From positions 1-53,262 of the forward strand of contig NZ_BLZO01000131.1 in the NCBI RefSeq assembly GCF_014132355.1: 53,262 bases of DNA. Reading direction: 5' to 3'. Position 1 is the first letter of the stretch. Every line of letters starts with the position of its first letter. Made by a program: the position numbers and the translations under genes. The notes beneath the pieces were generated by a model. It ran no database searches and was not told the origin of the DNA. It saw nothing but the letters and a program-made list of their open reading frames with translations. Positions 29,658 through 42,426 of the stretch are shown in pieces. This stretch comes from Okeania sp. KiyG1. Its GTDB lineage: Bacteria > Cyanobacteriota > Cyanobacteriia > Cyanobacteriales > Microcoleaceae.

Positions 29658-30468
29658 TTAAAATACTCCTTTTTCTGTTAATGTTTCTATTCTATCTACT
29701 AATCCAATTGCTCCTTGACTTTTTAATTGAGGCAATAATTCTGATGCGCCTAAAGGGCTGAGATTTGTTTCTATTTTATATTCAACTACTTGTGGTAATT
29801 CTGGTATATCTGGGGCTAAAGTTGACCTAGATTCTTGTAATTCTAGTCTGGTTGGATTGGCTTTTTTCGTAGCACTAATTAGTTTTGTTTTTTCTCCTTG
29901 GAAAAAGGGAGAATTTTGCAGTAGCAATAAAAAGTCATTGACTTGGCCATAAGAATCTGCAGTTCCCGAAAATGATACAGTTGCTGTTGGTTTTGGTGGC
30001 GCTGCTGCCTGTTCTTTTATCCCCTTTTGGATCTTTTGATGCTGCTGGAGCAACTATTTTTGGTTCTTTTTGTTCGATACTAGCTATTTTGACCCCACTA
30101 GGTATTAGGGTGCCAAATTCTCCCAATAAAGCTGACCATGGTTTAATTTGGTCAAAAACTGTTGCTAAGGCTTTTGCTTCTGCTTTAAATGTTTTAGTCT
30201 TTTCTTTGATTGCTTCTATATCTTTAATTTGGGCGTTTAGTTTGCTCAATTCGCCATTTAATTTGTCTAGGTCTGCCTGTAATTTGGTGTTTACTCGATT
30301 GAGATAGAACCATCCACCAGCAACTAGACCATTAACTGCTACTGCTACTGCAGCCCCAATTAGAATTGGTTTGGGGTCTTCTAGTGATGGTCCATCACGA
30401 TCGGGTTTGGGAATATCTTTTTTATATTCTGGGCGGTCGTTGAGAAAATTTATATCTAAGCCATACAT
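29658..30468 (-). pseudogene. pilN: PilN, type IV pilus assembly protein, one frameshift
   Basis: The reading frame from the ATG at 30468 gives PilN up to about residue 148: a YGLDINFLNDRPEY start, one membrane helix PILIGAAVAVAVNGLVAGGW, a coiled coil, then IPSGVKIASIEQ. It then goes out of frame. The next frame continues with EQAAAPPKPTATVSFSGTA and the rest of the periplasmic domain to 29658. Removing one base in the 30015-30028 homopolymer stretch (T4, C4, T4 on the plus strand) restores 269 aa, a normal PilN length. Either a sequencing error or a recent mutation. Between pilM (7 bp) and pilO (2 bp) in an operon. Confidence 0.85.
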
Positions 30469-30475
30469 AATTAAT

Positions 30476-31569
30476 TTAAACCTCTCTTAATCCTAAACCT
30501 AATACCACTCCTAGACTAGAACGTTGTTCTGGTGGAATTTCTTGTTCTATTTCTAGGGCTAAAGTTTCTATTGGATCGACTTTAGATGCAGGTAAACTTA
30601 AACGTTGCATAAAAAAGTCATCTATTTGTCCTATTGCTGCACCCGACCCTGTTAATAATAATTGTGCCACCTCCAAATCTTCAAATTGATTGAGATAAAA
30701 ATCTATTGAGCGTCGTAGCTCATCCCCTAATTCTGCTAATACTTTTAGTAAGGCATTAGTTCCGGGGTTTGGTTCGTTTCCTGTGACTCCCATTGTATCT
30801 AATACTGGAACGGTCATTCCCAGTAGTTCGCTGGTATCTCTGGTTGGAGGTAAGTTCATTGCTTCGTTTAAGGAAGATTGCATTTGATAAGTACCAATGG
30901 GAATTGTCCGGTTAAATTGAGGTACTCCATCTACTACGATAGCAAGTTCAGTACTGTCAAATTCTAAATCTGCTATTACTGTTGCTTCTTGGGGTCCATA
31001 CTGTTGAAGTATATCTTTTACTGTTCGGATTAAGGCAAAGTTACTTACTTCTAAAACATCTATTGCTAATCCTGCTTGGGTGAATACTTCTATGTAGCTA
31101 TCTGTTACTTCTTTTCTAGTTGCTACTAAGGCTACTTGTACTTTTTCTAAATCATCATTTGGATCTACTATTATTCCTAATTTTTGGTAGTCTACATCTG
31201 CTTCTTCTCTGGGAAATGGTAAGTATAAACCTGCTTCTTGATTCATATAATCTTGCAATTCTTGGTCGTTTAATTCTGCTGGTACAGGTATTACACGAGT
31301 TACTGCTTCTCTGCCGGGAATTGCTGTTGCTACTCTTCTGGTCTTGATATTATTTTCTTCTATAATTGACTCTATTAGCTCTGATACTGTAGGAGCATCA
31401 ACTATTTGACCTTCTAAAAATACATCTTCTGGTACTTCTACTGTGGCAAGGGTTACTAACTTTAGTTTGTCTCCTTGTTTACGAATTTCAGCAATATTTA
31501 TTCTTTCTGGGCCTATCTCTACTCCTATTCCTGGTTGCTTTTTTAATAAGTTTTTAAGTAATTAACCAT
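30476..31569 (-). pseudogene. pilM: PilM, actin-like type IV pilus ATPase, one frameshift at the start
   Basis: From about 31561 downward the frame encodes an intact PilM: KQPGIGVEIGPERINIAEIR (first phosphate-binding strand), REAVTRVIPVPAEL, NQEAGLYLPFPREEADVDYQ, then VIADLEFDSTELAIVVDGVP and LLTGSGAAIGQIDDF. No start codon exists in that frame before a stop at 31562-31564. An ATG with a good ribosome-binding site (CAGGAAAACC) is at 31569 but reads MVNYLKTY and stops. Adding one base to the five-base T run at 31551-31555 (plus strand) joins them into MVNYLKNLLKKQPGIG and 364 aa, the normal length. The TTG at 31258 would delete about 100 residues and is unlikely to be used. Confidence 0.85.
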
Positions 31570-38555: not shown

Positions 38556-39449
38556 CTATCCGACCAAAGTCTGAATCATTGCTTCACATAAGGACCCCTT
38601 GACCATTTGATCGAACCTAACAAACATAGGTGAACTATTCAGTTCTAAAAATACAAGTTGCTTCGTTTTTGGATCTGTTTTGAAGTCAGCGGCCCCAAAA
38701 TCCATCTTTAAACTTGCCATTAATTTTCGTAATAACTCCACTTCATCTGGCAGTGTTGCGAGAGGAATAACTTCAGCATCTGGTTGAACCCGATAATCTA
38801 GATGCTGACTACGAATTTCAAAAGCAAAGGCATAATTTCCTACTATATATATCCGAATTTCTGGCGCGACTAATTTATTTTGGACAATAGCTGGCATTGC
38901 TGCACAACCATTCCGAAACTGGATAGAGGAATGCAATTTTTCTAGGGAATAACAAAAATCACCCCCTGCAACTGGCTTGGCAATTGCACTCCCCGCAGAA
39001 TATTTGCCCAATTCATCAGCTTCATTTGTAATCAAAGTATCAGGGATGAGCAACCCTAACTTTTGGGCTAAAATCAGCATTGCTGGCTTATTGCCAACCG
39101 CAGGTAAATGGTTACGATTGAACAAACGGATCTTAGGTTGTGAGAGTAACCAACCATAGAGAGTTTGATACCAACCAGAGGCCCGTTGTGATGCTCCAGA
39201 TTTGGGAGCGCTCAAATTACCAAAAACATCATACCGAATAAACGCTCCAGTTGCCGATATAACTCGGTCTTTTATTCTCGGTTGTCCCTGAGTAAGATGC
39301 CATGAAAACTCTGGACTCTCTTCTTGCCCATGGAATACTTCGCAAACAGAAACCTCTTGACTTTTAGCAATTTCAATTAGTCGAGTTAGATTCGGATCTA
39401 ACCTCCCACCTGCAACTAGCAAACATCCACCATCTCCTGATTTAATCAT
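38556..39449 (-). CDS. ATP-grasp ligase, graspetide macrocyclase
   Basis: 297 aa RimK/MvdD-like ATP-grasp enzyme. NKPAMLILAQKLGLLIPDTL precedes the ATP-grasp fold, SAIAKPVAGGDF holds an ATP-binding lysine, VAPEIRIYIVGNYAFAFEIR is the central strand pair, and DFKTDPKTKQ with FLELNSSPMFVRFD gives the D...E-x-N metal-binding set. In graspetide clusters such ligases phosphorylate Asp/Glu side chains of the precursor and join them to Thr/Ser (esters) or Lys (amides). The ATG at 39449 is preferred over an upstream one at 39509: the latter would add 20 residues encoded by a mobile element, while 39449 has GGAGAGG at ideal spacing, supplied by that element's end. Downstream of the precursor gene on the same strand. 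Confidence 0.85.
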   Translation of the reverse strand: MIKSGDGGCLLVAGGRLDPNLTRLIEIAKSQEVSVCEVFHGQEESPEFSWHLTQGQPRIKDRVISATGAFIRYDVFGNLSAPKSGASQRASGWYQTLYGWLLSQPKIRLFNRNHLPAVGNKPAMLILAQKLGLLIPDTLITNEADELGKYSAGSAIAKPVAGGDFCYSLEKLHSSIQFRNGCAAMPAIVQNKLVAPEIRIYIVGNYAFAFEIRSQHLDYRVQPDAEVIPLATLPDEVELLRKLMASLKMDFGAADFKTDPKTKQLVFLELNSSPMFVRFDQMVKGSLCEAMIQTLVG

Positions 39450-39450
39450 T

Positions 39451-39800
39451 AGACCTCTCCGAAAAAGAGGGAATAGGTCGTAGGGACGTTGTATGCAAAG
39501 CCCGTACAAAGTAGGGGGAAATAATTGATGATTTATGCACGATAATTGATTTTATTTTTGACGATCAAAATAATGTGCGTCGCGCAACCCTGCCTTTTTA
39601 AGGTGCAATATTTTTGGAGAGTTGCTCGTGCATCCCCTAGTGCAGAATGGCGGAAATAACTGACCAGTTACAAAATCCTAAGAGCCTTGCCAATCAATAC
39701 TTCTGACTTCTGACTTCCGCGTAGCGGCACTAGTTCCCCTCGAGGGAGGGGTTAGGGGTGGGTTAACTTCTAAATTCTGACTTCGTTAACGGAGATATCT
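39451..39800. mobile_element. family A element, copy 5, between precursor and ligase (350 bp)
   Basis: Ends AGACCTCTCC / GGAGATATCT, target duplication ATT on both sides (39448-39450, 39801-39803). It fills the whole gap between the two genes. Read on the minus strand, the empty site is TACTAATGATT, where the precursor stop TAA and ligase start ATG overlap (TAATG). The 3-bp AAT duplication recreated both codons. The interior holds the usual TTGATTTTATTTTT plus GGGAGGGGTTAGGGGTGGG filler. Confidence 0.85.
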
Positions 39801-39801
39801 A

Positions 39802-40725
39802 TTAGTACCGACCAAAAGGACCACCCTCTTCACCAACTACCATTGTGGTAGGTCCCTCTTCCCCTACTGCCTTTGTTGTCGGTTGAGGTTGTTCTTCTCC
39901 TACTGCCAATGTAGTTGCTTGAGGAGGTTGTTCCTCTCCTACTGCCAATGTTGTGCCTTGAGATTCTTCTTCTCCATAGGCCAATGTAGTTGCTTGAGGA
40001 GGTTGTTCCTCTCCTACTGCCAATGTCGTGGCTTGAGATTCTTCTTCTCCATAGGCCAATGTAGTTGCTTGAGGAGGTTGTTCCTCTCCTACTGCCAATG
40101 TTGTAGCTTGAGATTCTTCTTCTCCATATGCCAATGTAGTTGGTTGAGGGCTTTCCTCTCCTACTGCATATGTAGTTGGTTGAGGGCCTTCCTCTCCTAC
40201 TGCCAATGTCGTAGCTTGAGGTTCTTCCTCTCCTAGTGCATATGTAGTTGGTTGAGGGCCTTCCTCTCCTAGTGCATATGTAGTTGGTTGAGGGCCTTCC
40301 TCTCCTAATGCTCGTGTACTTGGTTCTTCCTCCCCTAATGCCAATGTAGTAAATTGAGGCTCTTCTTCTCCTACTGCCAATGTTGTCGGTTGAGAGCTTG
40401 CCTGGCCTGGTGTGATAAACTCACCAGCATGAACAGTAATGGAATTAATGCGGGCCGAAACAATTACCGCATCTGCACCATTGGTCGGTGTAAAATCCAC
40501 AGTAGCCATAATTGGCGTTAAGCGTGGAAGACTAATATCTGATGGTTTATCAGCGTCAAAACTAAATTCTAGGACTGAATCATCTGGATTAGGATCGGCT
40601 GAGTTATCTAAACGAGGATTTGTCCATCCGGAAGTTGCAGTCAGTCCCTCTGCTTGAATACTGAGCTTCAGTGGAGACTCGGTAATCTTAATTACAGAAA
40701 CCTGCAGTACCTTGAAAACTTTCAT
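39802..40725 (-). CDS. graspetide precursor with 16 plesiocin-type cores
   Basis: 307 aa. Residues 1-113 form an unusually long leader without signal peptide (MKVFKVLQVSVIKITESP, then AEGLTATSGWTNPRL and an acidic, beta-rich stretch ending GEFITPGQ). Residues 114-300 are sixteen repeats of the form T-T-x-A-x-G-E-E: fifteen TTxxxxEE and one STRALGEE (136-143), linked by 2-5 residue P/Q/E-rich spacers. One repeat reads TTMVVGEE. The tail is GGPFGRY. TTxxxxEE is the core motif of plesiocin, where Thr and Glu side chains are joined as two esters per hairpin by an ATP-grasp ligase; such a ligase is the next gene. The first motif residue varies (L, Y, R, K, M). Family assignment rests on motif plus neighbour; processing and product are inferred. 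The ATG at 40725 is the only good start. Confidence 0.85.
   Translation of the reverse strand: MKVFKVLQVSVIKITESPLKLSIQAEGLTATSGWTNPRLDNSADPNPDDSVLEFSFDADKPSDISLPRLTPIMATVDFTPTNGADAVIVSARINSITVHAGEFITPGQASSQPTTLAVGEEEPQFTTLALGEEEPSTRALGEEGPQPTTYALGEEGPQPTTYALGEEEPQATTLAVGEEGPQPTTYAVGEESPQPTTLAYGEEESQATTLAVGEEQPPQATTLAYGEEESQATTLAVGEEQPPQATTLAYGEEESQGTTLAVGEEQPPQATTLAVGEEQPQPTTKAVGEEGPTTMVVGEEGGPFGRY
39826..40386 (-). repeat. core-encoding repeat tract of the graspetide precursor
   Basis: DNA encoding residues 114-300. A 66-bp higher-order unit (encoding the pair TTLAYGEEESQ.-TTLAVGEEQPPQA) occurs three times in a row in the 3' half with few base changes. The 5' half is more diverged with 11-13 residue units. 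This shows growth by tandem duplication. Confidence 0.9.
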
Positions 40726-41587: not shown

Positions 41588-42426
41588 CTATATTTTTAGA
41601 GCTATTTGATAAATTTGGCGACGGGATAGGTTGGTTTGATGGGCAAGTTGGCGACTTGCTTGCGATCGCGAAATTCCTTGTTCTAAAAGTTTTTGTAATT
41701 CTACTTTAATAGTATCTTCTGATATTACTGGTGTATCTGGTTCTGCTCCTGCAATAATCAGGGTAAATTCTCCCCTTGGTTGATTAGTTTGATAATGAAT
41801 AATTGCTTGTCCAACTGTACCACGCCAAAATTCTTCATAGAGTTTTGTTAATTCTCTAGCTAAGACTATTTTTCTCTGTTTACCTAATACTTTTGCTAAA
41901 TCTTCCAAGGTTTGTTTGAGTTTATGAGGAGATTCATATAAAATTATGGTTTCTTGTAAGTTGGGTAAAGCTTCTAAGTCTTGTTGACGTTGTTTACTTT
42001 TGCTTGGTAAAAACCGATAAATATAAATTTATCAGTAGGTAGTCCAGAAGCACTTAATGCTGTGATACTTGCACTTACTCCTGGTATTGGTACTACGGAA
42101 ATATTTGCTGCAATGCAAGCTTTTACTATTTCATATCCTGGGTCGGATATTCCTGGCATTCCTGCATCAGTTACTAGAGCTATTGTTTTTCCTTGATGTA
42201 ATTTTTCGATTAATTCAGGTATACGACTTTGTTGGTTATGTTGATGGTAACTTAATTGTGGAGTTTGGATATCAAAATGTTGTAATAATTTGCTGGTGTG
42301 GCGAGTGTCTTCTGCTGCTATTAAGTCTACTGTTTGTAGGGTTTTAATTGCTCGAAATGTGATGTCTTCTAGATTGCCTATTGGTGTGCCAACAATGTAA
42401 AGAGTCCCTAAATTTATTTCATTCAT
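41588..42426 (-). pseudogene. rsmI: RsmI, 16S rRNA 2'-O-methyltransferase, one frameshift
   Basis: The SAM-dependent enzyme of the tetrapyrrole-methylase fold that methylates C1402 of 16S rRNA. The N-terminal part is clear: LYIVGTPIGNLEDITFRA, AAEDTRHTSKLL, LVTDAGMPGISDPGY and VPIPGVSA. At the A5 run 42009-42013 (plus strand) the frame changes from GFYQAK to GFLPSKSKQRQQDLEA and continues through RELTKLYEEFWRGT and GEFTLIIAG to the stop. One added base restores 279 aa, the normal length. The protein would be truncated after about 143 residues if the indel is real. The stop codon overlaps a family B target duplication. Confidence 0.88.

Follow-up and report, generated by a model that had tools for sequence, protein, structure and literature searches.

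The window analysed here, a stretch of 53,262 nucleotides from the cyanobacterium Okeania sp. KiyG1 (contig NZ_BLZO01000131.1), carries a pair of genes that a preceding sequence-only reading had described as a two-gene graspetide cluster with a plesiocin-type precursor. The first gene encodes a 307-aa precursor and is followed on the same strand by an ATP-grasp open reading frame (ORF; 38556–39509, minus strand) with the motifs AKPVAGG and ELN. The counts given in that reading, sixteen core units with 15 of them starting with TT and one with ST, are right. The ligase frame is open from 39509, but translation probably begins at 39449 (MIKS...), the position used in all nine complete relatives, where ligase start and precursor stop overlap. 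The following features were assigned:

39802..40725, minus strand: precursor gene, 307 aa, calculated mass 32,149.6 Da unmodified (ORF with 16 core units)
40402..40725, minus strand: N-terminal leader domain, residues 1–108 (alignment with nine relatives; hhalign match to core-less bacterial proteins)
39826..40386, minus strand: array of 16 TTxAxGEE cores (15 TT, 1 ST) separated by Pro-, Gln- and Glu-rich linkers (pattern count)
39805..39825, minus strand: C-terminal tail GGPFGRY (PFG[RW]Y at the end of 9/9 complete relatives)
39448..39805, minus strand: probable insertion between precursor and ligase genes (CTAAT at 39801–39805 and 39448–39452)
38556..39449, minus strand: putative ATP-grasp ligase of graspetide type, 297 aa when translated from 39449, the probable start (family scores, tree and topology test)

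The core array resembles that of plesiocin, whose core motif is TTxxxxEE. When the residues of the precursor were shuffled 2000 times, units of the form [TS]T....EE appeared 0.127 times on average and at most twice, against the 16 found, which rules out a chance origin of the repeats. Relatives were collected by scanning a species genome collection for the ligase with a pattern-based search that detects only close relatives. It gave 11 loci, nine of them with the complete pair (L004–L012; two Okeania, one Oscillatoria, four Symploca and two Moorena records), L005 being from Okeania hirsuta. Together with the window these amount to 143 cores over 10 precursors with 10–17 cores each, so that sixteen cores, regarded as unusually high in the sequence-only reading, are an ordinary number within the family. 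Gly6 is present in 143/143 and Ala4 in 141/143 cores and neither was demanded by the search pattern, which itself fixed Thr/Ser1, Thr2, Glu7 and Glu8, so that constancy at these four positions is by construction. Synonymous codons vary at all four of them; four Thr codons are used at Thr1 and four at Thr2, and both Glu codons at Glu7 (46 versus 97), showing that the DNA changes beneath a fixed protein motif at Thr1, Thr2 and Glu7. The variable residues are position 3 (L 45, Q 35, R 20, M 18, Y 16, K 8, E 1) and position 5 (L 57, V 45, Y 33, I 8). No GG or other conserved cleavage site was seen by eye between the N-terminal domain and the cores. The whole precursor had no match in Pfam or NCBIfam, and none among solved structures using phmmer up to E 10.

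Family searches, as proposed in the sequence-only reading, were productive for the ligase. Its NCBIfam matches are TIGR04187 (E 1.6e-21), MvdD (4.3e-15), MvdC (1.4e-11), grasp-with-spasm (5.5e-6) and RimK (3.5e-4), all of them under the curated cut-offs, and Pfam gave no match. The best solved structure is 7drm (E 5.7e-11 by sequence, 5.4e-14 by profile), which according to the text of PMC10452190 is PsnB, the plesiocin ligase. The alignment with PsnB runs from residue 109 of 297 onward and conserves KPVAGG and LELN.S.MF. We then reconstructed a tree of 30 ligases, containing seven of the ten window-group members, six RimK rows and a further six whose GshB label follows the match pattern and not a family test; PsnB is not among the rows. 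The window group is found on the graspetide side with a 100/100 split from the RimK and GshB-labelled rows, and joins the microviridin-type ligases and L049/L050 at 91/87, whereby its very long stem makes the join with the microviridin-type ligases unsure. Ligases of other TTxAxGEE precursors form a separate clade (99/98). A grouping with RimK or glutathione synthetase, named in the sequence-only reading as the result that would contradict it, was not obtained, as a clade of the window group with RimK is rejected by the approximately unbiased (AU) test (p-AU 0.003) and the GshB-labelled rows are split off. A union with the other TTxAxGEE ligases, a hypothesis named after the tree had been seen, is not rejected (p-AU 0.096). 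A ligase profile searched against a class sample of 388 genomes hit the own genome only (1/388) at E 1e-25, a threshold too strict to list other graspetide ligases. From sequence comparison, an assignment of the ligase to the graspetide maturase branch of ATP-grasp enzymes is supported. The graspetide-type nature of the two-gene cassette has held up as well, given the family scores, the tree with the AU test and the co-occurrence of both genes in nine further contigs.

To our analysis of the two genes belongs a feature that the sequence-only reading did not contain, namely the leader domain; the relatives, a second locus in the own genome and the insertion between the genes likewise go beyond it. 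Residues 1–108 share 84–97% identity with the nine relatives (alignment A1), whereas the ligase reaches lower values of 78–94%, and they match no NCBIfam model. The A1 profile matches 11/291 genomes of the order: seven with a full-length close copy including the own genome, one with 45 residues only, one with a short remnant containing a stop and two with a distant core-less protein of about 190 aa (L031 and L032, E 6.7e-8 and 4.0e-7) that ends in a DUF5818 domain. Using L032 as tblastn query we obtained 7 plasmid records, six of which align with the leader-like part and one with the DUF5818 part, at a best E of 4e-16; four of the 7 were inspected. The core-less proteins L031, L032, L036, L042, L043 and L047 possess a domain of about 100 aa of the type GW.NP...DGI.DFDF...GVRVHAS.N, and GW.NP, DGI.DFDF and GV.VHA.N are common to them and the leader in the alignment. 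Comparison of the domain of the ten precursors with these six sequences, some of which sit in larger ORFs, gave a probability of 97.7% and E 1.7e-12 in hhalign. A joint profile matches 6/291 genomes of the class, counting the own genome. Three further genomes supply four strong core-less matches, and two more matches are weak. Neither Pfam nor NCBIfam has a name for the leader-type domain in the core-less members tested, and no ligase was found by tblastn within 3.3–8.4 kb around ten core-less loci with the ligases of L005 and contig C97 as queries. On sequence grounds the leader region looks as if it had been recruited from an existing family of core-less bacterial proteins. We infer this direction of transfer, from core-less protein to leader, because the core-less form is more widely spread, and the length and conservation of the leader let us expect a folded domain.

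Two plasmid-borne members of this domain family differ in their context. In a Mesorhizobium plasmid (L036:4001–6022) the leader-domain protein adjoins genes annotated as an M4 metallopeptidase and an emfourin-type inhibitor. In the Serratia plasmid pSF001 (L039:1821–3314) the leader domain is fused ahead of a further protein part, presumably an amidohydrolase-like enzyme, in an unannotated ORF near transposases. Matches of A1 in viral contigs (L034 and L035) comprise one stretch of 25 residues each at E 3e-5 and were taken as chance; a search of viral contigs with alignment A4 gave no loci.

The motif TTxAxGEE is also present on other leaders. A ligase-family search in the class revealed it in L051 (6 TT cores), L052 (10) and L056 (2), and contig C97 of the own genome carries a 361-aa ORF with 7 TTxAxGEE cores and a different leader (L097:3552–4634). 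Some 700 bases after this ORF lies a ligase (L097:5347–6267) with a nearly full-length match to PsnB at 1.1e-30. The 7-core ORF differs further from the window precursor by an extra C-terminal region of about 180 aa, which has no Pfam match and is partly repeated at seven further sites of the own genome; we take it to resemble RTX-type secreted proteins. All four loci share with the window nearly the same core, several cores per precursor and an ATP-grasp ligase nearby. In contrast, their leaders are short, or long and probably helical (by eye), their ligases belong to another clade and their cores mostly read GEEGG, whereas GEE is followed by varied linkers in the window family. Many cores and the TTxAxGEE motif are not unique to the window family; the domain leader and a separate ligase group appear to be so, as far as the searches reach. 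The own genome also encodes a third graspetide-like ATP-grasp ligase on contig C59 (L003/L098; TIGR04187 E 1.2e-46) with a long branch in the tree, and no TTxxxxEE ORF was found within 11 kb around it.

The precursor stop and the ligase start overlap as TAATG in 9/9 complete pairs, which suggests translational coupling of the ligase to the precursor. In the window genome this junction is split by about 350 bp between two copies of CTAAT. The insert is made of repeats dispersed through the own genome, where its pieces have at least 54 further matches with 40 of 1402 first-look candidates scored; this recurrence points to a probable recent insertion of a repeat, accompanied by a duplication of the target. 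Neither reading frame is interrupted, and the ligase may still be translated despite the lost overlap since the insert brings GGAGAGG directly upstream of its ATG.

Both genes stay together in the nine further contigs while most neighbours change. The pair in L004, L005 and the window, like the remnants in L014 and L033, is flanked by genes similar to rsmI and folC, and folC is also present in L013. Outside the Okeania/Trichodesmium group the sole neighbours recurring in at least three loci are pilM- and pilN-like genes. They adjoin the precursor in Symploca SIO2E6 (L012:4819–6733) and lie about 4 kb from the remnant in Trichodesmium MAG_R04, a metagenome-assembled genome (MAG; L014:11456–13420). 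In the window, at about 30001–31561, they come within some 7 kb of the ligase (near 30479–31561), and their vicinity across genera possibly marks an old common site. The remaining neighbourhoods differ, except that the two Moorena records are alike. Among the six nearest window ORFs Pfam identified a response regulator, a Mur-ligase-type protein, which we take to be FolC, and an RsmI-type methylase across two ORFs, while one ORF had no match and one only weak matches. The rsmI gene is broken into a TP_methylase and an RsmI_C part at 41588–42426 of the window and is whole in L004 and L005. No peptidase or exporter is present among these six, as the sequence-only reading had stated for the adjacent genes. 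No transporter family was found by Pfam among them and fourteen neighbours of the relatives, which are part of the ORFs present. No other neighbour is common to all the complete pairs, and no peptidase or exporter is shared by all relatives. Near the Moorena pair L008 the opposite strand encodes a peptidase S49, and L006 and L007 have alpha/beta hydrolases nearby, two different ones, that also match Hydrolase_4 (described as serine aminopeptidase S33). The cassette seems to have been lost repeatedly because broken copies and remnants exist: in the Okeania locus L013 a deletion ends the core array after GF and the ligase match begins only at residue 159, the Trichodesmium MAG (L014) retains only ligase residues 277–317 and no core array, L033 has a remnant at the same place beside folC, and L030 keeps the first 45 leader residues.

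We consider it fairly probable, from the sequences, that the pair represents a distinct cyanobacterial type of graspetide cassette, with a domain-guided ligase, nested esters and loops directed to several proteases. The N-terminal domain would dock the ligase, which would phosphorylate Glu side chains and link each of them to a Thr; every core would then hold two nested esters and the window precursor up to 32, which would lower its calculated mass by up to 576.5 Da. The product would be a string of rigid eight-residue hairpins with the varying residues 3 (L, Q, R, M, Y, K) and 5 (L, V, Y, I) displayed on loops, where they would set the specificity, and one molecule could offer binding sites for several serine proteases. 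The normal gene overlap would tie ligase synthesis to precursor synthesis. Protease inhibition by cores of mixed specificity is our best guess, because the text of PMC13097080 describes plesiocin as a multivalent inhibitor of serine proteases that becomes more potent as units are added. As a tentative extension, the TTxAxGEE hairpin may be a portable ester-stapled module used on different carriers; here a domain of the core-less family would serve as leader and permanent head of a full-size protein with up to 32 esters and many protease-facing loops, and no peptide would be released.

Several points weigh against the distinct graspetide cassette. The ester chemistry is taken from general graspetide knowledge and the protease inhibition from analogy. 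The TIGR04187 score of 76.9 bits is far below the curated cut-off of 350, and the alignment with PsnB leaves out the first third of the ligase. The invariance of Thr/Ser1, Thr2, Glu7 and Glu8 carries no weight as it was imposed by the pattern; one loose pattern also found 4 near-miss units in 3/10 precursors, and more decayed units such as LISQAQ (L004, L005) and TIQAQ (L008) are visible by eye. AlphaFold gave a predicted local distance difference test score (pLDDT) of 36.4 for the leader (A1, 10 rows) and 36.8 for the ligase (alignment A2, 10 rows), and the models, which give no support for docking or fold, were not used. The usual graspetide leader motif (PFFARFL, Phhx(1,2)h) is not clearly present in A1: by eye, PLVLSI in the Moorena and three Symploca rows (L010–L012) could fit Phhx(1,2)h, unlike the PLKLSI of the window, L006, L007 and both Okeania rows, and this stretch belongs to the domain family at large.

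Among the alternatives we regard one as a serious possibility, somewhat short of an even chance, namely that the chain is never cut and that the mature ester-stapled protein, consisting of a folded head, a multi-hairpin arm and the tail, stays inside the cell or is part of a scaffold or sheath. Protease inhibition would then not be its task, and the same ligase chemistry would apply. The lack of a visible cleavage site between domain and cores and of a peptidase or exporter, be it in the six window ORFs closest to the pair or common to all relatives, the existence of the head family without cores and the conserved tail all fit this, as do the collagen-like physical properties described for the five-repeat graspetide corallotide (PMC13097080, as far as its text was covered). 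However, graspetide peptidases are often encoded outside the locus according to the part of PMC8939145 covered, and the variation at core residues 3 and 5 is easier to read as a display to varied targets. That we deal with an ordinary plesiocin-type (group 2) cluster having merely more cores and a diverged leader appears unlikely to us. The plesiocin-type label of the sequence-only reading stands for the core, with TTxxxxEE in 15/16 window cores and one STxxxxEE, and PsnB as best solved-structure match together with the unrejected grouping with the other TTxAxGEE ligases argue in the same direction. The label does not extend to the remaining parts, as PsnB matches only the C-terminal two thirds of the ligase, the leader is a domain of another family and the free tree parts the two ligase groups, if not significantly and with an unsure join to the microviridin-type ligases. 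Moreover, no transporter was found among the neighbours inspected, in contrast to the high co-occurrence of NHLM-type transporters with group 2 given in the main text of PMC13097080.

The same 2026 RODEO survey reports 19 new graspetide groups including 34 and 35, and the window family may be one of these two. We see this as quite possible but rather less than evenly likely, and it is compatible with the other readings. As described there, long precursors with repeat motifs are frequent in groups 34 and 35 and group 35 consists of ligase and precursor only, which is the architecture of the window pair in words; the main text (PMC13097080) gives neither sequence nor taxon, so that the comparison is by description only. 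Very improbable, finally, is a RimK-like activity that forms amides or extends Glu-rich tails by amino acids and leaves the TT..EE repeats without cross-links. The cores are rich in Glu, RimK-type ligases are ATP-grasp enzymes and a weak RimK score exists, but the AU test speaks against the RimK clade, the graspetide family scores are far better, and Thr and Glu are paired in register.

Compared with known systems, the distinct cassette shares with plesiocin and PsnB the tandem TTxxxxEE cores, the single ATP-grasp ligase and the aligned KPVAGG and LELN motifs. It differs by the 108-aa N-terminal domain, the unaligned N-terminal third of the ligase and the absence of a transporter among the genes inspected beside the pair, and also by its 10–17 cores, as plesiocin is tetravalent according to the text of PMC12291112. 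The microviridin precursor AMdnA with AMdnC/AMdnB likewise combines several cores in one cyanobacterial precursor with ATP-grasp ligation (PMC5934393, in the part covered), but has three cores of the TxKYPSD type, a short leader binding motif and two ligases. The core-less family shares the domain of about 100 aa with the window leader and lacks the cores. The core strings TTLALGEE, TTLAVGEE and TTLTIGEE were not found in the open-access literature, nor was graspetide together with TTxxxxEE, a search that leaves aside graspetide surveys in subscription journals. The graspetide literature covered does not mention a leader derived from a core-less domain, whereby no search was aimed at this.

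In the text of PMC8939145 conserved leader residues typically lie inside the N-terminal 30 positions. A domain-derived leader would show how graspetide pathways gain new substrates by gene fusion, and it would supply a soluble docking domain that can be attached to other cargo. With natural arrays of 10–17 cores and mixed loop residues the family would offer ready-made multi-specificity designs, and it would allow potency to be compared with unit number over a natural range.

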